DNA from: [Eubacterium] yurii subsp. margaretiae ATCC 43715
Lineage (GTDB): Bacteria; Bacillota; Clostridia; Peptostreptococcales; Filifactoraceae
NCBI GenBank assembly: GCA_000146855.1
Contig: GL405246.1
Location: 2,020,374 to 2,053,703, forward strand
Direction: 5' to 3'
DNA: 33,330 bases
Shown here: piece by piece, positions 3,373 to 30,119 of the stretch
How the letters are laid out: every line of letters starts with the position of its first letter
Position numbering within the stretch: the first letter of the stretch is position 1
The notes under the pieces: model-generated
What the model was told of the DNA's origin: nothing
What the model saw: the letters and a program-made list of their open reading frames with translations, nothing else
Database searches by the model: none
Made by a program: the position numbers and the translations under genes

Positions 3373-6300
3373 CTACTTAGATTTGAGATATAAATCTGTG
3401 AGTATAATCGGATATTCCTTATCTTCCTGCTTATCTCTCCATGCTACTATGAATCTTACAACCGACTTATAAGGTTTATAGCCTTTTTGAGAATAATTAT
3501 CTAATTTTTCCTTGCAGGATTTTGAAAACTTTGCAAGTCTTATTATTTGACCACCCATTTTAACAGCTAGAAATTCTTTTTCAACTATCAGTTCACTTCC
3601 ACTTAGCAAAGAAAATATCTCAGCTGTTTTATCTTTGAAGTAGTTTAAGACGACATCTTTATAAGAAAGTTGAATGCTTATTTCCTCAGGCTTATCATAG
3701 GTATTTTCGTCATAGTATCTCTCTATGTTATCTATATTGATATTATCAAATACATCATTATTGCAATGAATATGAAGCTTATTTTTTGCCCTTGTCAAGC
3801 CTACATATATCTTTCTTTTCTCCTCATCATCATCTCTTAGCTTTCCCCTTAACATAAGATATACAGTGTCAAACTCCCTACCCTTGGATTTATGAATAGT
3901 TGAAATAAATACCGCCTTGTTATCCTGTCTGTAAAAATCCTCGTATACAGATTCATCTATGAATTCCTGAAGATCTGACATAAACTTTGCTTTATTTGTA
4001 TTTTCAAAATCCTCTATCATATTGAGACAATTTTCCAAAACTTCACTATCCTTGTATTTTGATATCAGGCTTTCTTTAGCAAGCTTCCAAATATTTTCTG
4101 ATATTATTAGAGAGGATGGGTTTTTTTCAATCTCCTGATTGATTTTTTTGGTGAAGTACCTGACCTCTGCAAGGTCTGAAAGCTTGAACCTTTCCATAGT
4201 TTGTAGAAGTTTTGTATTTATTTTCATAGACTTTAAGGCTGCTGAAATTTGAAGTGCCTCCTCATTAGTACTTGTTAATATACAGCTTGTATCACTACCT
4301 TTTTGTATCTGATTTATAAGGGCAGTTTGTATATTATTGCTCTTATATTTTGTTACGGATACCTTGCCGTTTGAGTCAGAAAAAGATACACAGGATTCAG
4401 ATTTTATCCTATTTTTTAGATTTTTTAGGAATTCATCGGAAAACTCCACTATCTTTTTTGCACTTCTGTAATTTGTCACAAGTTCATATTTTGTTGCTTC
4501 ATACTTATCTATTAGAAGCTGCATATATTTTGAGCTTGAACCTCTAAAACCGTAGATATTTTGATCGTCATCTCCTACTGCAATCACTCTTATGCCGTCA
4601 TTTGCAGCTATGATTGCTTCTAAGAGTTTGAAGCTGTCCTCATCCATATCTTGCGCCTCATCTATTACTATTACTGACTTTGTAACCTGTCCCTGCTCTA
4701 CTTTCTTAGATAGTATTTCATCTACAGCCTTGGACACTATGTTTTCCGATTTTTCCACAGTACCCCTTTGCCCTAAGATATCAAAACAGTAGGAATGGAA
4801 AGTTTTTATATCAACAAAATACGCTCCGTCACCAATAAGTTCAATAAGTCTTTTCTTAAATTCTGTAGCGGCTGCTCTTGAAAATGTCAGCATTAACAAC
4901 TGCTCTGCCTTTACATCTTCCATAAGTAGCAGTGATGCAAGCTTATGCACAAGAACCTTTGTTTTTCCACTGCCTGCTCCTGCCAATACTGTAATAAACT
5001 GGGAATTATCATCGTTTATTATCTCTTTTTGCTTTGGAGAAAGCTCTTCAAACAGCTCCTTGTATTTTTCAGGAGAAATATTTCTTTCCAAATCAACTTG
5101 TTCAGCCTTGTCAAAATACTTTATTAAGAAGTCTTTAAAAGGCATTTGAAAGTAGTCTTTGACAAATTGCAATGCTTTTTCATAGTTTTCCGCCATAACA
5201 CGAGCATATTTTCCAACTATGTGAATCTGCTGTTTCTTCTGATTATAGTGTTCTTTCAGTATCTTATAATCCATCACCTTATACTGCACTCTATTATCCT
5301 TTTCAAGCCTTGAAATGTGCATGGTATTATAAAGCACGAGGAAACTACCTTCCAAAGACATCGCTCCTATCTTTGTAAGATACAGTATGGCTTCTTCAAT
5401 ATCTTCCAATTTAACATTTTCATTATTCGCCTGCTTTTTATAATCGTTGAACATCTCTATTAGAGAAAATTCAACAGTTGCTTCTTTTTCAAATGAACTT
5501 ATTTGCCCATAGAGTTTTTCAATAATAAATTGCGATATATCCTTTCTGAGTTTGAAAAAGTCCAACAATTGCTTCTTTGTAAATTGCGGATATACCATGG
5601 CTTTTTTAGCAAAACTGTTATCCTGTTTTTTAATGTATTTTTTAATTGCTAAAAAAAGTAGTATAGTCTTGATATTTTGTACTGTAGATGTTGTTATTCC
5701 GGCATTTATAGCATTTTCGTTAATTTCCTTAATATCCAAAGTGATATTTTCAGCATCAAAGTATTGCAATATCAACTCTTCAAGAGCTAAAAATCTGTCC
5801 AGAGTTCTCTTTGCCACATTTTTCGAAAAAGATATATGGGCACTCATATCTTTGCTGTCAGCAAGTATACTGTGTTCTCTCAAAATATTTATGGCATCAA
5901 TTACATCCTCTTTTTTAATACCTAAAATATCACTTAGAAAATCAACCCTTGAGTCCGCATCCACACCAAGGTTAACCGATGACCTTTTACTGAAAAGTGA
6001 ACTTAGTATTCTCTTGGCATTTTCTTTTTGAATTTCACTTATGCCTTGTATATTTTCTACTTTTTCAGTTACATCTATCATACTTTTTGCCAATATTCCT
6101 GTAGCATAGACTCTTGTAGAATTATTTTCTCTTTTTATATACTTTGCATTTTCCAAAGCTCCTAAGGCAATTTTTACTCTACTTTCCAAGTCCCTAATAT
6201 TTTCATTCCATCCTGCTTCCCTTGCTATTTCAAGTGCAGAAGAAGAAAAAAACGGCTTATTTTTTGTAAAGCTTTTAACTGCCTTCCATACCTGTTGTAT

Positions 6301-8136
6301 TTCACTCATACTGAGCTTACTTTGATTGAGTAGAGCAAAGTGTTTATTTAAATCCGCATCGTTGTATAAGATATAACAGTCGGCATCTATATTAGGATCT
6401 CTTCCTGCTCTACCTGCCTCCTGTACATAGTTTTCAAGAGAATTGGAAATATCGTAGTGTATTACGAGCCTTACATCGCTCTTGTCAACTCCCATGCCAA
6501 AAGCTGATGTTGCAACTATCACCTGCACCCTGTTATTAATGAAGTCATCCTGATTCTTCACCTTCTCATTTACATCCATCTGACCATGAAAAGACTTGGC
6601 ATATATGCCGTCCCTGTTCAACCTTTGCGCTAATTCCTCTGTTGTAGCAGTCCTTGAGGCATAGACTATAGTAGGACAGTTTTTCGCCTGTATTATATCT
6701 CTCATTGCACTATACTTTTCTTCTTCTGTTTCCTTGTACAGCACCTTATAACTTAGATTTTCCCTTTCTATATCAGTGGAAAAAAGCTGCATATTAAGAT
6801 TAAGTTTTTCTTTGAAATACTGTCTTATGTCATCAATAACCTGCTTTTTGGCTGTAGCTGTAAAACAAGAAATAGCTATCTTATTTCTACCTGACTTTTG
6901 CTTCATGAGATTTTTGATAAAATCTCCAATATAGAGGTAATCCACCCTAAAATCATGTCCCCAAGAAGAAAAACAGTGTGCCTCATCTATTACAAATCTA
7001 TCTATATTCCTTGAAAGCAGTGCATTTTGTATGCTGTTTGACCTAAGTTGTTCAGGAGAGATATATAGTAGTGATGCAGTCCCGTCTATCAATCTTTCAA
7101 AGGCATTCTTCCTTTGGATTTCATCAAGCAATCCGTTGATAGTTACAGCAGAAGTAATACCTCTATCCTCAAGATTGTCCACCTGATCTTTCATCAGAGA
7201 TTGTAGAGGAGATATCACCACTGTCAGCGATGATGAAGCCTCTTTTTGTATCAGAGCAGGTAATTGAAATGTCAGAGATTTTCCTCCCCCTGTTGGAAAT
7301 ACAGCTATCAATGACTTTCCTTCCATAGCACAATTTACTGCCTTTTCCTGTAGATTCTCACCGTTGTACTGTCTAAACTTTTCATAGCCGAATATTTTTT
7401 TTAGATATTTATTAGGGTTGAGATTTTCATTACAATAGTTGCACTTTTTACAGCTGATACCCCTAAGCCTCTTCATTATATTCTCTATATTGGGAAAGGT
7501 CTTCATAGTCCATTTCGGAGTGATAGAGTTTTCATCTCCAAATCTAATAAGAGCTAAGCTATAAGCAAGCTCCATAGGATATTGCTCCACAAATTTTTCC
7601 AACTTTGCATTTTCACAAATCTCAGACTTAAACTCCTCTTGTATAAACTCTGTAGATATCTTGGGAAATTTAACTCCCATAAAGTCAAAAAATCCTGAAA
7701 ACTCCTCCTTATCATGAAGCAAAAAATAATAAATATTTTGTAAGTTAAAATCAAGCTCTAAAAAAGCATTGAGTTCATCATAAAATAAAATCATGGATTT
7801 TTTCGCATCATTTAGAGGATTATTAAGTTCGTATGTATTGAGTTTATCATCTTTTAACAACTTGTGATACGGTCTTTTCGGAAAGAGCAAGGCGGAAAGA
7901 TAAAGTGTATCTATATATTTTTTATTAGAGCTGTCATTTATATATTTACTCAAATACTCAAGGTCATGATGTATGAAATTGTGTCCGCAGATGAATTTGT
8001 AGTCTTTAGTCACTTTTAAAAGAGTGTCTTTATCATTAAAGTGAAATTGCAAATTATCACTTGTAATACAGCCTATGTCCGATATTTCATGAGATTTTAC
8101 ACCTATCTCACTGTCAACAAATATTATTTTCTCCAT
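3373..8136 (-). CDS. Giant three-part protein: DEDD exonuclease-like domain + RecQ helicase + UvrD/Rep-type helicase (1587 aa)
   Basis: Domains in order. Residues 1-125 look like a DEDD 3'-5' exonuclease: D8-x-E10, N53..D58 and D110, but the position five before D110, usually His in DEDDh enzymes, is Asn105. Residues 225-236 hold CxxCxxC (C229, C232, C235), a likely metal site. RecQ SF2 core about 250-600: Walker A TGGGKS (282-287), DEAH (384-387), the FTATA motif near 425, and QEAGRAGRD (572-580). The 600-1000 stretch is a helical linker region. UvrD-type SF1 core about 1030-1460: GAGSGKT (1053-1059), DEAQ (1159-1162), GDDDQNIYGFRG (1188-1199), TIHKSKGREF, and VGLTRAK (1445-1451). Likely acts in DNA repair or recombination. 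Proteins of this size and architecture occur scattered in Firmicutes and Bacteroidetes; their role is not settled. No frameshift seen; monocistronic. Confidence 0.88.
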   Translation of the reverse strand: MEKIIFVDSEIGVKSHEISDIGCITSDNLQFHFNDKDTLLKVTKDYKFICGHNFIHHDLEYLSKYINDSSNKKYIDTLYLSALLFPKRPYHKLLKDDKLNTYELNNPLNDAKKSMILFYDELNAFLELDFNLQNIYYFLLHDKEEFSGFFDFMGVKFPKISTEFIQEEFKSEICENAKLEKFVEQYPMELAYSLALIRFGDENSITPKWTMKTFPNIENIMKRLRGISCKKCNYCNENLNPNKYLKKIFGYEKFRQYNGENLQEKAVNCAMEGKSLIAVFPTGGGKSLTFQLPALIQKEASSSLTVVISPLQSLMKDQVDNLEDRGITSAVTINGLLDEIQRKNAFERLIDGTASLLYISPEQLRSNSIQNALLSRNIDRFVIDEAHCFSSWGHDFRVDYLYIGDFIKNLMKQKSGRNKIAISCFTATAKKQVIDDIRQYFKEKLNLNMQLFSTDIERENLSYKVLYKETEEEKYSAMRDIIQAKNCPTIVYASRTATTEELAQRLNRDGIYAKSFHGQMDVNEKVKNQDDFINNRVQVIVATSAFGMGVDKSDVRLVIHYDISNSLENYVQEAGRAGRDPNIDADCYILYNDADLNKHFALLNQSKLSMSEIQQVWKAVKSFTKNKPFFSSSALEIAREAGWNENIRDLESRVKIALGALENAKYIKRENNSTRVYATGILAKSMIDVTEKVENIQGISEIQKENAKRILSSLFSKRSSVNLGVDADSRVDFLSDILGIKKEDVIDAINILREHSILADSKDMSAHISFSKNVAKRTLDRFLALEELILQYFDAENITLDIKEINENAINAGITTSTVQNIKTILLFLAIKKYIKKQDNSFAKKAMVYPQFTKKQLLDFFKLRKDISQFIIEKLYGQISSFEKEATVEFSLIEMFNDYKKQANNENVKLEDIEEAILYLTKIGAMSLEGSFLVLYNTMHISRLEKDNRVQYKVMDYKILKEHYNQKKQQIHIVGKYARVMAENYEKALQFVKDYFQMPFKDFLIKYFDKAEQVDLERNISPEKYKELFEELSPKQKEIINDDNSQFITVLAGAGSGKTKVLVHKLASLLLMEDVKAEQLLMLTFSRAAATEFKKRLIELIGDGAYFVDIKTFHSYCFDILGQRGTVEKSENIVSKAVDEILSKKVEQGQVTKSVIVIDEAQDMDEDSFKLLEAIIAANDGIRVIAVGDDDQNIYGFRGSSSKYMQLLIDKYEATKYELVTNYRSAKKIVEFSDEFLKNLKNRIKSESCVSFSDSNGKVSVTKYKSNNIQTALINQIQKGSDTSCILTSTNEEALQISAALKSMKINTKLLQTMERFKLSDLAEVRYFTKKINQEIEKNPSSLIISENIWKLAKESLISKYKDSEVLENCLNMIEDFENTNKAKFMSDLQEFIDESVYEDFYRQDNKAVFISTIHKSKGREFDTVYLMLRGKLRDDDEEKRKIYVGLTRAKNKLHIHCNNDVFDNINIDNIERYYDENTYDKPEEISIQLSYKDVVLNYFKDKTAEIFSLLSGSELIVEKEFLAVKMGGQIIRLAKFSKSCKEKLDNYSQKGYKPYKSVVRFIVAWRDKQEDKEYPIILTDLYLKSK

Positions 8137-21167: not shown

Positions 21168-22295
21168 CTATTTAATTTCCGGATGTTCTTTTTTAAATTT
21201 TGCATTTTTAATAGGTGCAATGATTGCAAGCGGAATAACCAATAGGAAAATACAAACTCTTCCTATCCAGCCATAACCTACAGCAACAAGTTTTGTCAAT
21301 CCCACTAATGAGAATATTACAGATATGAACAGACAAGTAAATGAAATAAGTGCACGACGCTTGCTGATATCAACACTCTTGAGTACGACATTTTCAAAAC
21401 GTGCAACCAATCCGAAGACTACACCTACACCTGTAGATACAAAGGCACAATACAATACTATAGAGTAAGAATATAGTAGAAACGGATTATTTTGATTTTT
21501 TGCAATTGTAAGAATAGGCAACTTATTTGAAGCTATATCAGGCATATACCCCAAAATCATCATGGCACATAAAGCTGTCATCACAGCATTAAGTATGAAT
21601 CCTATAATAGCAAAACCTGCACAGTCTCTTGTTGTCTTTAAGTTTTGAGAAGTAGATACTAAAGACGCCACAACCAATATTTGGAATCCACCATATATCA
21701 ATCCCATCCATAAAACTTCTCCCCAACTACCTTGCATATACTTTGTACTTACTATATGTCCTAAATTTTCACTTCCTGAACTTAGACCAGGTACCAAGAG
21801 TATAATTAAAAATATTAGAATAAATATTGTAATGTACGAAGATGCCTTTCTAACAACTTCCGCACCGAAAATAGTCAATAAGAAGAATACTAAGCCCGTA
21901 ATAGTGATCCCTACATAATAGTTTAACTTAAATAACTCTTCAAATAATGAACCTCCTCCTGCGATTGCAATACCTGCAGCTACAGTTACCAACACGAAAA
22001 AAGCTATATCAAAAAAAATCTTTCCTGCAGTTGAAAAAGGTGCATATAATTCTCTTGCAAAGTCATCGTAGCGGAATATTTGATGATTTTTAGCCATAAC
22101 AACTCCGTTATAATAGCACCAACCCAATAGTCCTATAATCAGTACCGGCATGAATACAGCCGGCCAACCAAATCTTACAAAATATTGAACAGTTTGATTA
22201 CCAGTTGCAAATCCACCACCTACGTGCGAGCCAAACCATACTGCTGCTACAGCAAACATCGCTCCAAACGATGCCTTAGAAGTCTTATTATCCAT
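21168..22295 (-). CDS. YkvI-like multi-pass membrane transporter (375 aa)
   Basis: Ten or so transmembrane segments with the YkvI-family N-terminus, in which the first helix carries AVWFGSHVGGGFATGNQ, a broken glycine-rich helix like the substrate-binding helix of APC/LeuT-fold carriers. Family members are uncharacterised. Its place directly after etfA, on the same strand and ended by a strong terminator, makes uptake of the amino acid (leucine or phenylalanine type) or exchange of the fermentation product plausible; this is inference from neighbourhood. TTAGGAGG precedes the ATG. A long hairpin lies between it and etfA, so its expression may differ from that of the enzymes. Confidence 0.82.
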   Translation of the reverse strand: MDNKTSKASFGAMFAVAAVWFGSHVGGGFATGNQTVQYFVRFGWPAVFMPVLIIGLLGWCYYNGVVMAKNHQIFRYDDFARELYAPFSTAGKIFFDIAFFVLVTVAAGIAIAGGGSLFEELFKLNYYVGITITGLVFFLLTIFGAEVVRKASSYITIFILIFLIILLVPGLSSGSENLGHIVSTKYMQGSWGEVLWMGLIYGGFQILVVASLVSTSQNLKTTRDCAGFAIIGFILNAVMTALCAMMILGYMPDIASNKLPILTIAKNQNNPFLLYSYSIVLYCAFVSTGVGVVFGLVARFENVVLKSVDISKRRALISFTCLFISVIFSLVGLTKLVAVGYGWIGRVCIFLLVIPLAIIAPIKNAKFKKEHPEIK

Positions 22296-22568: not shown

Positions 22569-23630
22569 TCATTGTAACTGCGAAACATCTATTCTGTTTG
22601 AATTAAATAAATCTACCAATCTCTTATCATCATCCAAAAGTTCAATCAATTTTGGAACTACATCGTATACGTCGCCGACAATACCATAATCTGCCACTTC
22701 AAATATAGGTGCATTCTCATTAGTATTAATAGCAATAATTATATCTGAGTTTTGCATTCCAGCTAAATGTTGAATTGCTCCTGAAATACCGCAGGCAACA
22801 TAAACCTTAGGCTTGACAGTAGTACCTGTTTGACCTACCTGTCTTGAATGATCAATCCAACCTGCATCAACCGCAGCACGAGATGCTCCTATTGTTCCTC
22901 CCAATCTGCCTGCCAATTTTTGCAATAGTTTGAATCCGTCTGCATTTTTAATTCCCAAACCTCCCGATATTATGAACTCTGCATCTGTCAATGATATGAG
23001 GTCTTTTTTAGTCTTAACAATTTCAACAACCTCAGTTCTAATATCAGCTTTTGTCAATTTAGTATTTAGCTTGATTATTTCGCCCTTGTGGTCTGCATCT
23101 TCAACAGCCTTATCCATAACTCCAGGTCTTACTGTAGACATTTGCGGTCTTCTTTCAGGGCAAACTATTGTAGCCATAATGTTTCCACCAAATGCAGGAC
23201 GAGTTTGTTTTAACTTTTTATCTTCAGGATCAATCTCAAGCTTAGTACAATCGGCAGTCAGTCCGGTATTCAAATTAGATGCTACACGAGGTGCCAGATC
23301 ACGACCTATATGAGTTGCTCCGATTAGAATTATTTCAGGCTTAAATTCTTCTACAGCATCTATGATTATTTTAGCATAACCATCTGTAGTATAATTTTTC
23401 AACAGTTCATTATTTGCATAGTAAACCTTATCAGCTCCAAAACGTATAAGCTCATCAGCTAAAGCATCTACATTATATCCACCCAAAATTGCACATAATT
23501 CAACTCCGATTTCATTAGCAAGCTTTCTTCCCTCTCCAAGAAGCTCTATAACCACAGGAGTCAAAATACCGTTTCTCTGTTCGGCAAATACCCAAACATT
23601 TTTAAATTGTTTTATATCTCTATTATCCAT
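22569..23630 (-). CDS. etfA: Electron transfer flavoprotein alpha subunit
   Basis: Pairs with EtfB to carry electrons to the acyl-CoA dehydrogenase. The C-terminal FAD-binding domain is clear: [53 protein letters not shown] and a [19 protein letters not shown] tail segment. About 353 aa. A TTG overlapping the etfB stop could be read as the first codon, but GGGGG five bases before the ATG at 23630 makes the ATG the better start. In C. difficile the equivalent EtfBA with AcdB performs electron bifurcation, reducing ferredoxin; that role here is inferred from the identical gene order. Confidence 0.95.
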
Positions 23631-23642
23631 CTTTTCCCCCAA

Positions 23643-24428
23643 CTAAATGATGTGCTTATGTTTTAATTCGACAACAAGTCTTTCAATCTTATCTTGTGTA
23701 GTACCTTCAAGCATAACGCCTTTTCCTTTTGGACTTGGAGTGAAAGAACGAGCCACACGAGTAGGAGAAGCCTTTAAACCTACAACCGTGCTGTCGATGT
23801 CAAGATCATCAATGGTCCAAATTGTAACATCTTTTTTAAAAGCATCAAATATCATATCTACACTCATGTATCTTGGATCATTCAACTCCTTGACTGCTGT
23901 CAACATCACAGGTGTTTTTACCTTAATAACTTCATATCCGTCTTCTAATTGTCTTTGAACAGTTACAGTATCTCCATCCAAAGAAAAATCCTGTACATAA
24001 GTTACTTGAGGAATGTCAAGTTTTTCCGCAATTTGAGGACCGACTTGAGCAGTATCTCCGTCAATAGCTTGACGACCTGCAAAAATAAATTTATAATCGC
24101 CTATTTTACGAATCGCCGCTGCAAGTGCATTTGAAGTAGCCCATGTATCAGAGCCGCCAAATGCACGGTCAGAAATCATATATACTTCATCAGCTCCCAT
24201 AGCAAGGCATTCTCTTAGCATAATTTCTGCTTGAGGAGGTCCCATAGTTACTACAGAAACTGTAATATCGGGATTATTATCTTTTAATTTCAAAGCTTCT
24301 TCTAAAGCATTTGCATCATCAGGATTCAAAATGCTTGGCACACCTTCTCTTATAAGAGTGCCGGTTACAGGATCTATACGTACCTCAGTCGTATCAGGTA
24401 CTTGTTTCGCACAAACTATAATTCTCAA
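23643..24428 (-). CDS. etfB: Electron transfer flavoprotein beta subunit
   Basis: 261 aa. Typical EtfB opening (IVCAKQVPDTTEVRIDPVTG), NPDDANALEEAL, and the conserved FAGRQAIDGDTAQVGPQIAE loop (residues about 120-140). The C-terminus VARSFTPSPKGKG, LEG and a recognition loop contact EtfA. Located between acdB (45 bases upstream) and etfA (adjacent), so one transcript. The protein would bind a flavin or AMP at this site; bifurcating Etfs bind FAD here, but sequence inspection alone does not separate the two. Confidence 0.96.
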   Translation of the reverse strand: MRIIVCAKQVPDTTEVRIDPVTGTLIREGVPSILNPDDANALEEALKLKDNNPDITVSVVTMGPPQAEIMLRECLAMGADEVYMISDRAFGGSDTWATSNALAAAIRKIGDYKFIFAGRQAIDGDTAQVGPQIAEKLDIPQVTYVQDFSLDGDTVTVQRQLEDGYEVIKVKTPVMLTAVKELNDPRYMSVDMIFDAFKKDVTIWTIDDLDIDSTVVGLKASPTRVARSFTPSPKGKGVMLEGTTQDKIERLVVELKHKHII

Positions 24429-24473: not shown

Positions 24474-25607
24474 TTACTTAATAACATGACCCGCTATTAC
24501 CATTTGTTGCACTTGAGATGTACCTTCATAAATGGACAATATTCTTGCATCCCTGTAAATTCTTTCGATAGGATAATCCTTGATAAATCCATACCCACCA
24601 TGTAATTGCAAAGCCTTATATGCAACTTCATTAGCAATTTCAGCTGCATAGTATTTTGCCATAGCAGACTCTAATCCTGGAACCTGTCCATTGTCTTTCT
24701 TCTCTGCAGCATCATATACCAATAATCTTGCAGCCTGAACTTTCGTTGCCATATCAGCAATTGTGAATTGTGTATTTTGGAATTTTGCAAGAGGTTTGTT
24801 GAATTGTACACGTTCCTTCACATATTTGATAGCCTCATCCAAAGCACCTTGAGCAACACCAAGAGCTTGAGCAGCAACTCCTATACGACCGTAGTCAAGT
24901 GTATTCAACATTATCTTAAAGCCTTGACCTACTTTACCAAGAAGATTTTCCTTAGGAACCTTTACATTCTCCAATATTATATCTGAAGTTTCCGTTCCAC
25001 GAATACCCATCTTATTCTCATGAGCTCCATGAGAGAAGCCTTCCCATTTTGATTCAACAATAAATGTCGAAATTCCCTTTGTTCCCTTGCTCTTATCTGT
25101 CATGGCTGAAATAATTGCAAAATCACAAATCGGAGCATTAGTAATAAAGCATTTTCTTCCGTTTAGTTCATAGTAGTCACCTTTGTCAATAGCTATTGTC
25201 TGTCCTGCACCTGCATCAGATCCGGCTCCAGGCTCAGTCAACCCGAAACAACCAATGTATTTCCCTTCAGCCAAAGGTCTTAAATATTTCTCTTTTTGCT
25301 CTTTTGTTCCGAAGTTTACAAGCGGAAGTGCAACCAATGAAGAAGCTGCAGTAATATAAGTACCTGTAGAAGCGCATCTTCTGCTAATTTCCTCCATTAC
25401 AATGGTGTAAGAAACGTAGTCTGCACCTGCACCGCCATATTCCTTCGGAATGATAGTTGAAATAAATTTATGCCTCACCAATTTAGCAATAACTTCTTTG
25501 GGAAGTGATCCAACCTCATCAACTTCATCCGGATATGTAGCCATTTCCCTTTCAACAAAATCACGAACAGTCTTTCTTAATAATTCATGTTCCTTTTTAA
25601 ATATCAT
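24474..25607 (-). CDS. acdB: Acyl-CoA dehydrogenase (AcdB-like, reduces the 2-enoyl-CoA)
   Basis: 377 aa. Acyl-CoA dehydrogenase motifs: CFGLTEPGAGSDAG (FAD/substrate contact), FITNAPICDFAIISA, the middle beta domain KMGIRGTETSDIILENV, and the C-terminal LQLHGGYGFIKDYPIERIYR DARILSIYEGTSQVQQ region; the glutamate of YEGTSQ is the usual catalytic base. Position after hadC matches C. difficile acdB, where it reduces isocaproenoyl-CoA with EtfBA. A GTG 12 bases upstream is in frame, but GGAGG sits directly before the ATG at 25607, which I take as the start. An intrinsic terminator separates it from hadC. Confidence 0.94.
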   Translation of the reverse strand: MIFKKEHELLRKTVRDFVEREMATYPDEVDEVGSLPKEVIAKLVRHKFISTIIPKEYGGAGADYVSYTIVMEEISRRCASTGTYITAASSLVALPLVNFGTKEQKEKYLRPLAEGKYIGCFGLTEPGAGSDAGAGQTIAIDKGDYYELNGRKCFITNAPICDFAIISAMTDKSKGTKGISTFIVESKWEGFSHGAHENKMGIRGTETSDIILENVKVPKENLLGKVGQGFKIMLNTLDYGRIGVAAQALGVAQGALDEAIKYVKERVQFNKPLAKFQNTQFTIADMATKVQAARLLVYDAAEKKDNGQVPGLESAMAKYYAAEIANEVAYKALQLHGGYGFIKDYPIERIYRDARILSIYEGTSQVQQMVIAGHVIK

Positions 25608-25650
25608 GCTTTCCTCCACTTAATATTAAGTTACATTTAAACTATATTTG

Positions 25651-25719: not shown

Positions 25720-26841
25720 CTACAGAATTTCAGCAAATGTCTGAAGTCTTGTCTTAACCTGTTCAGAAGCACCGTCTTGTTGGTCAAATTCAAAAGAGAT
25801 TACAGGAATTTTACCTTCTTCAATATCTTTCAAACAAATAGGCATATCATACTCTTCATTATCTGAGAATTTCATCAATGCATACAGAGCACCGTCTGCC
25901 TTTCTTTCCTTAGCCAAATCTACCATCAACTTTCCTCTAAGTTTTTTTGGATCATATGCGAAAGAAAATCCTTTGATAGCTCCCCAATATTCAGCCAATC
26001 TTGAAATTCCGTCTCCCTTCTCAGGAATGTCAGAATTATATTGAACTGATTCATGTGCCAAGTAGTCTCCTACAATACGAAGTTTGTTGTTTTCAAGTAT
26101 ATCCAATAACTTTGGATCGTCCATTTGTAGTCCTGTAACAACAATGCGTTTTCCATCAAAATTTTCTTCAGGTAGTTTTCTCAACTCTTCATTTATAGAC
26201 TTGACAATATCTGCGTGTTCCTTCTTAGGCATAAACCACGCACTCTTAAATACAAATGCTCTTTGTCTGTTATTAATAGTATTTGGATGAGAAGCTGCCA
26301 ATTTTGAAAATTCTCTCATAACTTCCTTATGTTCATTATAAATTTTGATGCTTCTTTGTATATCTTCTTCGGTAATTTCTCCACCCTTAATTTTTTCCAA
26401 TTTTTTCTTAATTCCTTCAAGTTCATTCTTCAAAAATTCAATTCCACTTGGAATAAATCTATTTTGAGGATATGCAATAAAGATTGTAGGATATTTTTTA
26501 ACTCCTGATTCCAAATTTTGTGCCAAACAATTCAAAGTATCAGATAGTCCCGGAACAATAATAGCACTTAACATATCATAAGTTCCATTTAAACCAAATT
26601 CCATAATGGCAAACGCTGCAGATGCGGCAAAAGCAGGAAAATATTGTTTAGCCAAATCATATTCAACGTCATATCCTCCCCAAAGGCCTACAGGAAGCAT
26701 TCCGGCTGCATCTATAAGTTCTTCTGGACCAATAGGCATGCAAACACCAACCGCCTTCATATTATTATTTTTTACATAGTCATTGACAGTATCTTTAGGA
26801 TTTAGCGCAATCTGTTCACACTTTTTCAATAATTGTTCCAT
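25720..26841 (-). CDS. hadC: 2-hydroxyacyl-CoA dehydratase, beta subunit (HadC-like), with the usual cluster cysteines replaced
   Basis: 373 aa, the second subunit of the radical dehydratase that removes water from (R)-2-hydroxyacyl-CoA. Family features: CMPIGPEELIDAAGMLPVG LWGG near 34-56, YFPAFAAS at 67-74, VPGLSDTLNCLAQN at 96-109, and the final MKFSDNEEYDMP and FDQQDGASEQVKTRLQTF region. Compared with the C. difficile HadC as I recall it (FACS, GMCDTL, KFCDPEEYDYP), the three cluster-ligand cysteines are here Ala73, Ser100 and Ser326. The rest of the fold is well kept, so the change looks real, not decay. Overlaps the hadB stop by one base and has GGGGGC upstream, indicating translational coupling. 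Confidence 0.93.
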   Translation of the reverse strand: MEQLLKKCEQIALNPKDTVNDYVKNNNMKAVGVCMPIGPEELIDAAGMLPVGLWGGYDVEYDLAKQYFPAFAASAAFAIMEFGLNGTYDMLSAIIVPGLSDTLNCLAQNLESGVKKYPTIFIAYPQNRFIPSGIEFLKNELEGIKKKLEKIKGGEITEEDIQRSIKIYNEHKEVMREFSKLAASHPNTINNRQRAFVFKSAWFMPKKEHADIVKSINEELRKLPEENFDGKRIVVTGLQMDDPKLLDILENNKLRIVGDYLAHESVQYNSDIPEKGDGISRLAEYWGAIKGFSFAYDPKKLRGKLMVDLAKERKADGALYALMKFSDNEEYDMPICLKDIEEGKIPVISFEFDQQDGASEQVKTRLQTFAEIL

Positions 26842-28091
26842 TACTTATTCGCCCCCTTATGTTGCTCCATAACTTCAACCAAACCTTGTAACCTTGTTTC
26901 AAACTGTGCTTCAGAAAATGCACGGGCATCAGCTTGACATCCGTCAAATCCGGCATAAGGTATACCTGTTTGTTCAAATACATCTCTTTGCATCTGATAT
27001 TGAATAAAACTCATCAACTTGCAACTTCTATTCATATGATAAAACGCACCTTCGCAGTTACCGTCTTTTAGAGCATTTACACGATATTCTACCATCTTCT
27101 TCAAGTTTACATTGTTAAACATACCTGAATAAGCACGAGCCAAACCTTCAAGGTCATTTTTATCATATTGCAATGCCCATGCATGAGGATAGACACTACC
27201 TGTCATATTTACTCCATATTTTGTGAAAGTCTTCATCTTATAACCTATATAAGGCCAACATGGAATCCCTTCCATCATAATACGATACTTTTCTTCGCCT
27301 CTAAATGATGTAGTCTTGTTTGCAATACGTTCTTTCAACTCTTCTATCAGCATTTCAAAAGCTTCAGTAGTTTCTTTTTTACCTCTATAACATACAATGA
27401 CAGCCATGTAAGTAAATAAATCAAAACCATTCATTGGAGCCGGATACACGTCTTTAGACATCTGCATTGATTCTTTCCAAAGTTTACCGTTTTTAGAAGA
27501 GATTTCCATAACTTCTTCCAATTTTTTAGGATCGAATTTCTTTCCAGATATTTCTTCCAATTGTTTGATTCCATAATTAAATTGTTCTATGAAGTATTTT
27601 ACTCTGCTTTCACTGATATTATCATCATCATTATAAGCAGTATCAATCAGAATAAGCGGAATATTCTTCTCTCTTGCTATATTTTCATACCACTTGATAA
27701 CTTCATTACAGATATTGTTGCAGCAGCATAAAAAATCTGGTTCCGGCATACTTAGGTTTTCTGTTCCTCCGTTAATCAATCCACCATAGTTTGTACGTGC
27801 ATAGGCACACAAATCTATAGAATAGCCCTTTGCTTCCGCCAATTCTTGAAGTTTTGGAGCCTCTCTTTTTGCTGCAAGTCCAGCTGCCTGATTTTCAGGA
27901 TATAGTAAAGGTAAACCGAAACTTTCTACTAATTCTTGTGGAAATACGGATGTAGACCATCCTACAGGAATTCCTTTTTTCTTTGCATCCCATGCTTCCT
28001 TGTAAGATTGGGCGAGCAAATTATTTATTAATGTCATAGCATTTAGTTTTTTCTCTTCAGGTTTTGGATTTTTAACTTCTTCTCCCATCAT
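26841..28091 (-). CDS. hadB: 2-hydroxyacyl-CoA dehydratase, alpha subunit (HadB-like)
   Basis: 416 aa. The catalytic subunit, carrying a [4Fe-4S] cluster that binds the substrate thioester. Cysteine motifs are kept: SIDLCAYARTNYGG (C95), FLCCCNNICNEV (C122-C124, C128), KDGNCEGAFYHMNRSCKLMS (C346, C357), plus GVNMTGSVYPHAWALQYD and AGFDGCQADARAF. Very close in pattern to the 2-hydroxyisocaproyl-CoA dehydratase alpha subunit; phenyllactyl-CoA dehydratase (FldB) is the other possibility, and the sequence alone cannot decide the side-chain. The hadI stop overlaps its start (ATGATG); GGAG spacing favours the second ATG at 28088. Confidence 0.94.
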   Translation of the reverse strand: MMGEEVKNPKPEEKKLNAMTLINNLLAQSYKEAWDAKKKGIPVGWSTSVFPQELVESFGLPLLYPENQAAGLAAKREAPKLQELAEAKGYSIDLCAYARTNYGGLINGGTENLSMPEPDFLCCCNNICNEVIKWYENIAREKNIPLILIDTAYNDDDNISESRVKYFIEQFNYGIKQLEEISGKKFDPKKLEEVMEISSKNGKLWKESMQMSKDVYPAPMNGFDLFTYMAVIVCYRGKKETTEAFEMLIEELKERIANKTTSFRGEEKYRIMMEGIPCWPYIGYKMKTFTKYGVNMTGSVYPHAWALQYDKNDLEGLARAYSGMFNNVNLKKMVEYRVNALKDGNCEGAFYHMNRSCKLMSFIQYQMQRDVFEQTGIPYAGFDGCQADARAFSEAQFETRLQGLVEVMEQHKGANK

Positions 28092-28888
28092 AAACTCCTT
28101 TCTGATTTGTTATTCTTAATATATTCTTCATATGCGAAAATCGCTGCCCCTAATGCACCGGTAAGTTGAGGAAATTCAGGTACTATTATTTTAGTATTTA
28201 AAGACTTTTCCATCTCACGTACAACTCCGGAATTTTTTGCAACTCCACCTACCATCACTACTTTTTCCTCAACTCCGACACGCTTGGCCAAGCCAGAAAC
28301 ACGTTTTGCAACAGAGGCATGGATTCCCGCAATCACATCTTCAATCTTTTCTCCGGAAGACAGTTGGGATATGACCTCAGATTCTGCAAATACCGTACAA
28401 GTATTGCTAATGGATATTTCTTTAGTTGATTTTTCTGAAAGCTCTCCTAATTTGGAAACTTCTGTCTCCAAAACATTAGCCATAACATCCAAAAAGCGTC
28501 CTGTTCCCGCAGCACATTTGTCATTCATTACAAAATTACTCAAACGACCAGTCTTGTCAAGTTTTAACACCTTTGCATCTTGACCACCTATATCTATGAC
28601 AGTATGTGCATCTGGCTCTAAAAAATTAACTCCTTTAGCATGGCAACTAAGCTCACTAATCTGTTTGTCTGCACCTTGATAAGTAGTTCTACCATAGCCT
28701 GTTACAACTGTAGCTTTGATATCATCATCCGTCAATCCGCTTTTTTTTGTTAATTCCTCTTTGACTCTTTTTGGTCCACTTGTACCTGTACCGGCGTGAA
28801 TAGTAACTGTTTCAACAACTTCACTACCATCTTTAAGTATTACACCTTTTGAAGCTGTAGAGCCAAAATCTAATCCCAATGTATACAC
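28088..28888 (-). CDS. hadI: ATP-dependent activator of 2-hydroxyacyl-CoA dehydratase
   Basis: 266 aa, an ASKHA-fold 'archerase' that uses ATP hydrolysis to inject one low-potential electron from ferredoxin into HadBC. Visible: DFGSTASKGV (phosphate 1), DIGGQDAK (98-105), and two cysteines per monomer that together hold a cluster between two subunits: C125 in NDKCAAGTGRF and C164 in SNTCTVFAESEV. GGVAKNSGV and the C-terminal LTGALGAAIFAYEEY complete the fold. The start is a GTG with GAGG seven bases upstream, matching the family N-terminus. Fits exactly between hadA and hadB. Confidence 0.95.
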   Translation of the reverse strand: MYTLGLDFGSTASKGVILKDGSEVVETVTIHAGTGTSGPKRVKEELTKKSGLTDDDIKATVVTGYGRTTYQGADKQISELSCHAKGVNFLEPDAHTVIDIGGQDAKVLKLDKTGRLSNFVMNDKCAAGTGRFLDVMANVLETEVSKLGELSEKSTKEISISNTCTVFAESEVISQLSSGEKIEDVIAGIHASVAKRVSGLAKRVGVEEKVVMVGGVAKNSGVVREMEKSLNTKIIVPEFPQLTGALGAAIFAYEEYIKNNKSERSL

Positions 28889-28910: not shown

Positions 28911-30119
28911 TTAATTAATAACCTTCTTATCTCTTAATTCTTTCAATTGTTCGTCAGTATAACCTACGCCTTTCAACACTTCTTCTGTATGTTCTCCAAG
29001 AAGTGGTGAAAGCACATATTCTTGTGCTTCCCTATAAGGGAATTGAACAGGATTTGTAAACATAATTCTTTCATTACCGTTACGATATTTAATCTTAATT
29101 AAGAAATCATTAGCCCAACATTGTTCATCTTGTATAATATCAGAAGGTTGTTGCAAAATTTCATAAGGTATTCCTGCTTGTTGCAATCTCTTGCACCATT
29201 CAGCACTTGGACGTTTAATAAATTCTTTTTCCATCATTTCAACAAATTCTGTAACATAGTTTACAACACTCTTCATTGTGCTATACTTTGAGCCTTTCAA
29301 ATCAGGTCTTTCAACAACAATATCGCAGAATCCAGGGAACCATTTATCATATTGGAAAAATGCTAATTGAATCCATTTATCATCTGAACATTTATAGAAA
29401 GTATTCAAAGGATTAGGAGGTTCACGACGAGAAATAGGCATATCATATCCATATTGAGCGGCATTGACATATAATCCCAATCCAAATACTGCAGTATGGA
29501 ATAGAGAAACAGTTACTTTTTCTCCTACTCCTGTCTTAGATTTATTATATAAAGCAGCCATAATTCCTGAAACCAAATTCATTCCTGCATAGTGATCGCC
29601 AAATGCCGCTGCAGAGTTACAAGGAGATGTTCCCTTTTCCATCAAACTTGCTGCTACACCACCACGCGCAAAATATGCAGTATAGTCGAACGCAGGGTTA
29701 TCCTTAGCAGGTCCCTTATCTCCATATCCAAGTAGGTGAGCATATACGATGTGAGGGGCTACCTTATGTACTGATTCATAATCCAAGCCGCTCTTTACTA
29801 ATGCTTTTTGGCGAGTATTAGTAATAAAAACATCTGCATCTTCCAATAATTTCAATATAACCTTCGCACCTTCAGGAGAACTTGTATCCACAACTATACC
29901 TTTTTTACCTGAATTTTCCATTTCAAATAAAGGACATTCATCTTCTCCTGTAGGGAAATTCCACTGCATTCCTACAGCACGTGTAGTATCGCCAAAAGCA
30001 GGTTCAATTTTAATAACCTCTGCTCCCCAATCAGCTAAAACACGTCCACTAATAGGAGCTGCAACGAAATTTGCATACTCAATAACCTTTAATCCTTCGA
30101 GTAATTTACGTTTTTCCAT
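28911..30119 (-). CDS. hadA: Family III (CaiB/BaiF) CoA-transferase of the 2-hydroxyacid branch
   Basis: 402 aa. Moves CoA from an enoyl-CoA product to (R)-2-hydroxyisocaproate (or phenyllactate), which primes the acid for dehydration. Family III signatures: LEGLKVIEYANFVAAPIS, RVLADWGAEVIKIEP, NSGKKGIVVD, and FGDHYAGMN with Asp175 as the probable catalytic aspartate that forms the aspartyl-CoA anhydride. C-terminal region ANDFLIKIKY ... LLGEHTEEVL is normal. First gene of the operon; AGGAGG seven bases before the ATG. The C. difficile operon has ldhA just before this gene, absent here. Symbol by gene order; fldA is the alternative name if the substrate is aromatic. Confidence 0.93.
   Translation of the reverse strand: MEKRKLLEGLKVIEYANFVAAPISGRVLADWGAEVIKIEPAFGDTTRAVGMQWNFPTGEDECPLFEMENSGKKGIVVDTSSPEGAKVILKLLEDADVFITNTRQKALVKSGLDYESVHKVAPHIVYAHLLGYGDKGPAKDNPAFDYTAYFARGGVAASLMEKGTSPCNSAAAFGDHYAGMNLVSGIMAALYNKSKTGVGEKVTVSLFHTAVFGLGLYVNAAQYGYDMPISRREPPNPLNTFYKCSDDKWIQLAFFQYDKWFPGFCDIVVERPDLKGSKYSTMKSVVNYVTEFVEMMEKEFIKRPSAEWCKRLQQAGIPYEILQQPSDIIQDEQCWANDFLIKIKYRNGNERIMFTNPVQFPYREAQEYVLSPLLGEHTEEVLKGVGYTDEQLKELRDKKVIN

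Follow-up and report, generated by a model that had tools for sequence, protein, structure and literature searches.

In the canonical scheme of the (R)-2-hydroxyacyl-CoA dehydratases, as excerpts of one review set it out (PMC11574389), an activator fires an electron into a cluster in the beta subunit, from where it passes to the cluster of the alpha subunit 12 Å away, and the beta cluster takes the electron back after each turnover. Three protein cysteines hold the beta cluster according to the same excerpts (PMC11574389), and a second review, in an excerpt, makes the general statement that each dehydratase subunit holds a cluster (PMC8473912). As both excerpts describe the beta cluster as the place where the electron enters and is stored (PMC11574389, PMC8473912), its loss should cost something.

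Several described systems bear on the enzyme that we analyse here, which is encoded in a 33,330-nucleotide stretch of the [Eubacterium] yurii subsp. margaretiae ATCC 43715 genome (the window, meaning this whole stretch). HadBC, the (R)-2-hydroxyisocaproyl-CoA dehydratase of Clostridioides difficile (PDB 3o3m, 3o3n and 3o3o), shares its fold and gene order and has like alpha cluster ligands and activator cysteines. The class I benzoyl-CoA reductase BzdNO has the same fold and the same alpha-type cluster with three cysteines, whereas its beta-like subunit BzdN carries six cysteines and a double-cubane cluster (excerpts of PMC11971306), a change opposite to that in the window beta. The double-cubane cluster protein DCCP is homologous in fold to the window beta, which lacks its cysteines and, with 103 bits, stays below the cut-off of 350 for the double-cubane cluster reductase profile NF040772.

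A had-type operon in the window

The operon lies on the minus strand and is transcribed in the order CoA-transferase, activase, alpha, beta, acyl-CoA dehydrogenase, etfB and etfA, as identified by Pfam and NCBIfam profile searches:

28911..30119, minus strand: class III CoA-transferase (HadA-like), in the same order at the C. difficile had locus
28088..28888, minus strand: activator (HadI-like acyl-CoA dehydratase activase), Cys125 and Cys164 intact
26841..28091, minus strand: alpha subunit (HadB), 416 aa, C95, C128 and C357 intact
25720..26841, minus strand: beta subunit (HadC-like), 373 aa, ATG start, no cluster cysteines
24474..25619, minus strand: acyl-CoA dehydrogenase (AcdB-like), in the same order at the C. 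difficile had locus
23643..24428, minus strand: electron-transfer flavoprotein subunit beta
22569..23642, minus strand: electron-transfer flavoprotein subunit alpha

This is the gene order of the C. difficile had locus (L014), by analogy with which the operon would belong to the reductive branch of leucine fermentation, with a leucine-type substrate. Both dehydratase subunits exceed the cut-off of PF06050 (HGD-D superfamily; 28.4 bits) by a wide margin, the beta with 254.6 and the alpha with 231.8 bits. The alpha also passes the NCBIfam HadB equivalog NF052455 (784.4 bits, cut-off 750), and the gene beside the two subunits passes the activase profile TIGR00241 (275.7 bits, cut-off 125.4). The beta scores 468.2 bits against the HadC equivalog NF052456, for which the cut-off is 700.

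The beta subunit lacks the three cluster cysteines

Whereas HadC has three beta-cluster cysteines, the window beta, 47% identical to it in the structure alignment, has none. The earlier note had read alanine and serine at these places, and an end-to-end phmmer alignment with HadC (3o3m_B; 378 bits, E value 4e-112) agrees, pairing FAAS with FACS, GLSDTL with GMCDTL and KFSD with KFCD. The codons concerned, and two more that are discussed below, are:

26623..26625, minus strand: Ala73, first ligand position (Cys in HadC, FACS), from the alignment
26611..26613, minus strand: Phe77, one helical turn past position 73, from the alignment of 275 betas
26542..26544, minus strand: Ser100, second ligand position (Cys in HadC, GMCDTL), from the alignment
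25864..25866, minus strand: Ser326, third ligand position (Cys in HadC, KFCD), from the alignment
25858..25860, minus strand: Asn328, Pro in most betas with three cysteines, from the alignment of 275 betas

That these three positions are the ligand sites of the beta cluster, as the note had proposed, is borne out by cysteine counts, by the helices of a structural model and by the equivalent positions in the alpha subunit and BzdO. Positions 73, 100 and 326 are the three most constant cysteine columns of the family: among 159 betas picked by Pro328, a selection that is not fully independent as Pro328 itself covaries with the ligand cysteines, position 326 is cysteine in all 159 and positions 73 and 100 in 157 each, compared with 126 for the next most cysteine-rich column (292). 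An AlphaFold2 model of the window beta (mean pLDDT 95.5, from 66 sequences in the alignment) superposes on 3o3m_B with a TM score of 0.98 and an rmsd of 1.0 Å, and in it residues 73, 100 and 326 directly precede helices 74-84, 101-113 and 327-342. The cluster cavity of BzdN is lined by helix N-termini at 74:85, 103:113 and 327-343, according to a figure legend (PMC11971306). In the alpha subunit, C95, C128 and C357 align with Cys95, Cys128 and Cys380 of BzdO, which an excerpt of the same paper names as cluster ligands (PMC11971306). As the note had also said of the alpha subunit, these cysteines are intact in the window, and so are Cys125 and Cys164 of the activator.

Loss of the beta cluster in the window enzyme is well supported at the level of sequence and, since all three ligand cysteines are absent, the beta subunit very probably holds no [4Fe-4S] cluster, as first suggested.

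The loss is widespread

We placed the window beta among its relatives in a set of 275 non-redundant betas, obtained from 640 rows by removing those shorter than 345 aa and clustering the remainder at 90% (rows with loss) or 80% (rows with all three cysteines, CCC). All three cysteines are found in 162 of these, none in 85, and one or two in 28. Of the 120 best matches listed for the window beta, 25 have no cysteine at the three positions and four are incomplete sequences in which none is readable; the remainder read Cys/Asn-Asp-Cys (13), Ala-Ser-Cys (one) or have all three (77). Among 80 named loci, four lack all three cysteines (in E. yurii, Pseudoramibacter alactolyticus and two Peptoniphilus), three read Asn-Asp-Cys (all Lachnoanaerobaculum), 72 have all three and one is an incomplete sequence, the last two groups making up loci L008-L080 (n = 73); the scan behind these 80 used peptide patterns that allow only Ser or Cys at position 326, so that other states are under-sampled. 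Closest to the window among named relatives is [Eubacterium] yurii ATCC 43714 (L001), whose beta is 93% identical.

Two further Cys-free groups stand out, one reading Tyr-Asp-Asn, which occurs in Filifactoraceae and in the family of a Peptoniphilus genome (G003), the other a second Ala-Ser-Ser group, found in Peptoniphilus and Peptostreptococcus. Matches at 1e-60 occur in 48 of the 130 genomes of the G003 family, and 34 of these 48 carry a Cys-free beta, 31 of them with no canonical beta among the matches read; the other 14 carry canonical betas only. All listed matches of the family searches were read except two further copies in G121 with the same score as one that was read, and one relative search took in only matches at 1e-110 or stronger. 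The loss is seen in three operon types, namely with leucine-type HadC, with 2-hydroxyglutaryl-CoA dehydratase and in a third Stickland-type operon. In three genomes, whose assemblies may be incomplete and in which every PF06050 match was accounted for, the betas are all Cys-free: E. yurii ATCC 43714 (two pairs), Peptoniphilus KCTC 25270 (two) and Peptoniphilus BV3C26 (one).

The window enzyme is thus less unusual than the earlier note had assumed, as the loss extends through its nearest clade and to separate branches that include the 2-hydroxyglutaryl-CoA dehydratases of Fusobacterium. The note had also counted an absence of the cysteines from most close relatives against its own reading; for the nearest clade that absence is literally what we found, but the ligand assignment stands, because more distant HadC-type betas keep all three cysteines, which points to a clade-wide loss and not to mistaken ligands.

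Near the second Ala-Ser-Ser group, betas show a graded erosion in which most have lost the first two ligands and kept the third cysteine (Ser-Ser-Cys, Ser-Thr-Cys, Glu-Ser-Cys, Pro-Ser-Cys and others), the third ligand often being the last to go:

Graded-erosion betas, part 1: P0280-P0288, P0294, P0296, P0301, P0306, P0311, P0314
Graded-erosion betas, part 2: P0330, P0333, P0335, P0354; loci L284, L294

A group related to Peptostreptococcus (L183, P0319, P0325 and P0345) reads Cys-Ser-Ser, with the first ligand kept and hence another order of loss, and P0337 of the same group reads Thr-Ser-Ser.

Glutamate-type enzymes of Fusobacterium

With a Tyr-Asp-Asn beta (L210) as query, 2145 proteins match at E ≤ 1e-60, and all 120 listed are Tyr-Asp-Asn, including betas of F. 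necrophorum, F. varium (P0175), F. ulcerans, F. russii and Treponema phagedenis. At L210, a sodium/glutamate symporter adjoins the activase, alpha and beta genes, with a carboxyltransferase upstream, and the canonical sister locus, L218, combines genes for two CoA-transferase subunits with those for a carboxyltransferase and an activase, a layout that would be expected for a 2-hydroxyglutaryl-CoA dehydratase of glutamate fermentation. Excerpts of one review name F. nucleatum, F. varium and P. asaccharolyticus as users of the 2-hydroxyglutarate pathway, which F. varium follows in fermenting glutamate when B12 is absent (PMC8473912). Fusobacterium-type HgdB is like the window beta in lacking the three beta cysteines, with the alpha cysteines intact in the related loci read, and differs from it in its Tyr-Asp-Asn residues, its glutamate-type operon and a separate origin of the loss (below). 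The strictness of Tyr-Asp-Asn in the listed glutamate-type betas may reflect a replacement function. Two new invariant cysteines occur in the Tyr-Asp-Asn clade, at window-numbered columns 79 and 318 (26 of 26).

Independent losses

On the 275-row beta tree the canonical label changes six times, and on a 102-row beta tree built with the ligand columns left out it changes five times, all of these changes being forced by starred branches; a tree of the alpha partners (185 pairs) has four. The AU test, with groups that were named after the first tree had been seen, rejects a single clade of the window group with Tyr-Asp-Asn (p = 8e-56), of the second Ala-Ser-Ser group with Tyr-Asp-Asn (p = 0.008) and, weakly, of the window group with the second Ala-Ser-Ser group (p = 0.02). 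The window group and the Asn-Asp-Cys group sit together on the beta tree (support 73, not starred) and their alphas have derived residues in common (for example at 29, 32, 34, 59 and 207), which are best explained by common descent, so that the two may represent one erosion.

These trees give changes without direction. We read the changes as losses and not gains because distant relatives also have cysteine in these columns (loci L081-L084 and L086-L087, 42-58 bits).

What changes and what stays with the loss

A scan of alignment columns, from which columns 77 and 328 were chosen, points to changes around the ligands. Position 77 is Gln, Arg, Lys or His in 157 of 162 CCC betas compared with one of 85 Cys-free betas, 62 of which have Leu, and Gln is found in 13 of the 28 partial betas. 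Pro328 is present in 157 of 162 CCC betas, in two of 28 partial betas and in none of the 85 without cysteines. From these sequences, the surroundings of the ligands seem to have been remodelled to suit a pocket that holds no cluster.

The partners keep their ligands. The alpha cluster cysteines are intact in 225 of 227 distinct alphas and the activator cysteines in 89 of 98, the other two and the other nine being incomplete sequences. Compared with E. yurii, dN/dS is 0.05 (NG86) or 0.03 (YN00) for the window beta and 0.02 for the alpha, and selection on the window beta is strongly purifying. A large acceleration of the beta after the loss, which was expected, was not seen in the ratio of beta to alpha distances (2.27 and 2.41 after loss compared with 2.10; 1.91 for the Asn-Asp-Cys group against CCC). 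The beta, evolving only a little faster once the cysteines are gone, remains under constraint and may have a further task.

A scan of alpha and activator for compensating changes, a weak one with one sequence in the Asn-Asp-Cys group and six in the window clade, gave no fixed alpha difference with the same replacement in two clearly separate lost clades. At alpha position 385 (26937-26939), the window, E. yurii and Pseudoramibacter have Cys and the other alphas read have Asp (288 Asp, nine Cys and one gap, the nine being the window and repeated loci of those two genomes).

A probable one-cluster dehydratase

We consider it likely that the operon encodes a leucine-type (R)-2-hydroxyacyl-CoA dehydratase with one cluster, in which the beta subunit is structural and the alpha cluster does both catalysis and electron storage; one cluster probably suffices in these dehydratases. 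The beta, which is modelled with the HadC fold, would serve as the structural half of the heterodimer. The ATP-driven activator would dock as usual and, as the earlier note had supposed, hand its electron directly to the alpha [4Fe-4S] cluster, which would form the ketyl radical, regain the electron at the end of the turnover and hold it for the next substrate. Trees and alignments suggest that the same simplification took place several times in the family, including the Fusobacterium-type 2-hydroxyglutaryl-CoA dehydratases.

With a homodimeric activator, and with alpha and beta as related halves of a pseudo-symmetric dimer, direct transfer to the alpha cluster looks feasible. The DCCP complex has coinciding two-fold axes. 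An excerpt on BzdO proposes that activator binding closes a water channel to its alpha-type cluster (PMC11971306), which would place the activator near that cluster.

The main rival to a one-cluster enzyme keeps the relay through beta and fills its pocket with a different electron carrier, a flavin or a metal on oxygen or nitrogen ligands. Some dehydratases do carry flavin besides their clusters (excerpt of PMC11574389), the fold of the beta is kept in the AlphaFold2 model, and Tyr-Asp-Asn is constant across the listed glutamate-type betas (120 of 120). Against this, the window clade offers Ala or Pro, Ser or Thr, and Ser, which are poor metal ligands, position 77 turns hydrophobic, and the residues differ between clades with no shared new site seen, so that we regard another carrier as unlikely. 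Far less probable still is that the beta holds a [4Fe-4S] cluster through other cysteines. The window beta does have four (8, 34, 105 and 336), and C8 and C336 recur in 18 and 19 of the 21 betas of its clade, but no cysteine column is universal among these 21; C72 (18 of 21) and C132 (17 of 21) are nearly as frequent and are missing from the window beta itself. The 38 Cys-free rows outside the window and Tyr-Asp-Asn clades have a mean of 2.3 cysteines, with at least three anywhere in the sequence in 15 of the 38.

A decaying beta, in a dehydratase that is inactive or has another function, would fit the score below the HadC cut-off (468.2 against 700). The full-length frames and the dN/dS of 0.03-0.05, which also led us to reject a pseudogene, speak against decay, as do an alpha above the HadB cut-off, operons that are intact in several families and genomes whose only dehydratases are of the Cys-free kind, and we give this explanation very little weight. 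A sequencing or assembly error has no point in its favour and is refuted by independent records, as the same residues occur in E. yurii ATCC 43714 and in protein clusters P0001 and P0002, leaving it a negligible chance. Nor is the window a lone oddity, as independent relatives have the same residues; chance or error is improbable because E. yurii (93% identical) and Pseudoramibacter (60%) share the loss.

Beyond the window, we give even odds that dehydratases with one cluster form a widespread class, with at least four to six separate origins through loss of the beta cluster, in which the alpha cluster unaided takes up the electron, forms the ketyl and stores the electron. We speculate that such a class is favoured where hosts expose anaerobes to oxygen, with one labile cluster fewer to protect.

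Implications for the role of the beta cluster

With the beta cluster repeatedly removed while the ligands of alpha and activator are kept, these proteins amount to natural mutants for the role of the beta cluster. With Cys-free enzymes one can test directly what purpose this cluster serves, whether ATP-driven transfer can do without it and how many turnovers a single electron sustains in its absence. If the reading is true, the expected iron content and redox scheme change for the enzyme of glutamate-fermenting Fusobacterium and Peptoniphilus, and the Fusobacterium-type glutamate enzymes become an exception to the general rule of one cluster in each subunit. Among the titles and abstract beginnings of the open-access matches listed, we found no description of cluster-less beta subunits; specialists may already know of them, because the central literature on these enzymes appears in subscription journals.

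Other genes in the window

Downstream of etfA, at 21168-22295 of the window, lies a gene for a 375-aa hydrophobic protein with no Pfam or NCBIfam match at an E value of 0.001, possibly a transporter of the pathway. Further away, at 3373-8136, the window encodes a protein of 1587 aa that combines a DEAD-box helicase (first half) with a UvrD-type helicase (second half).
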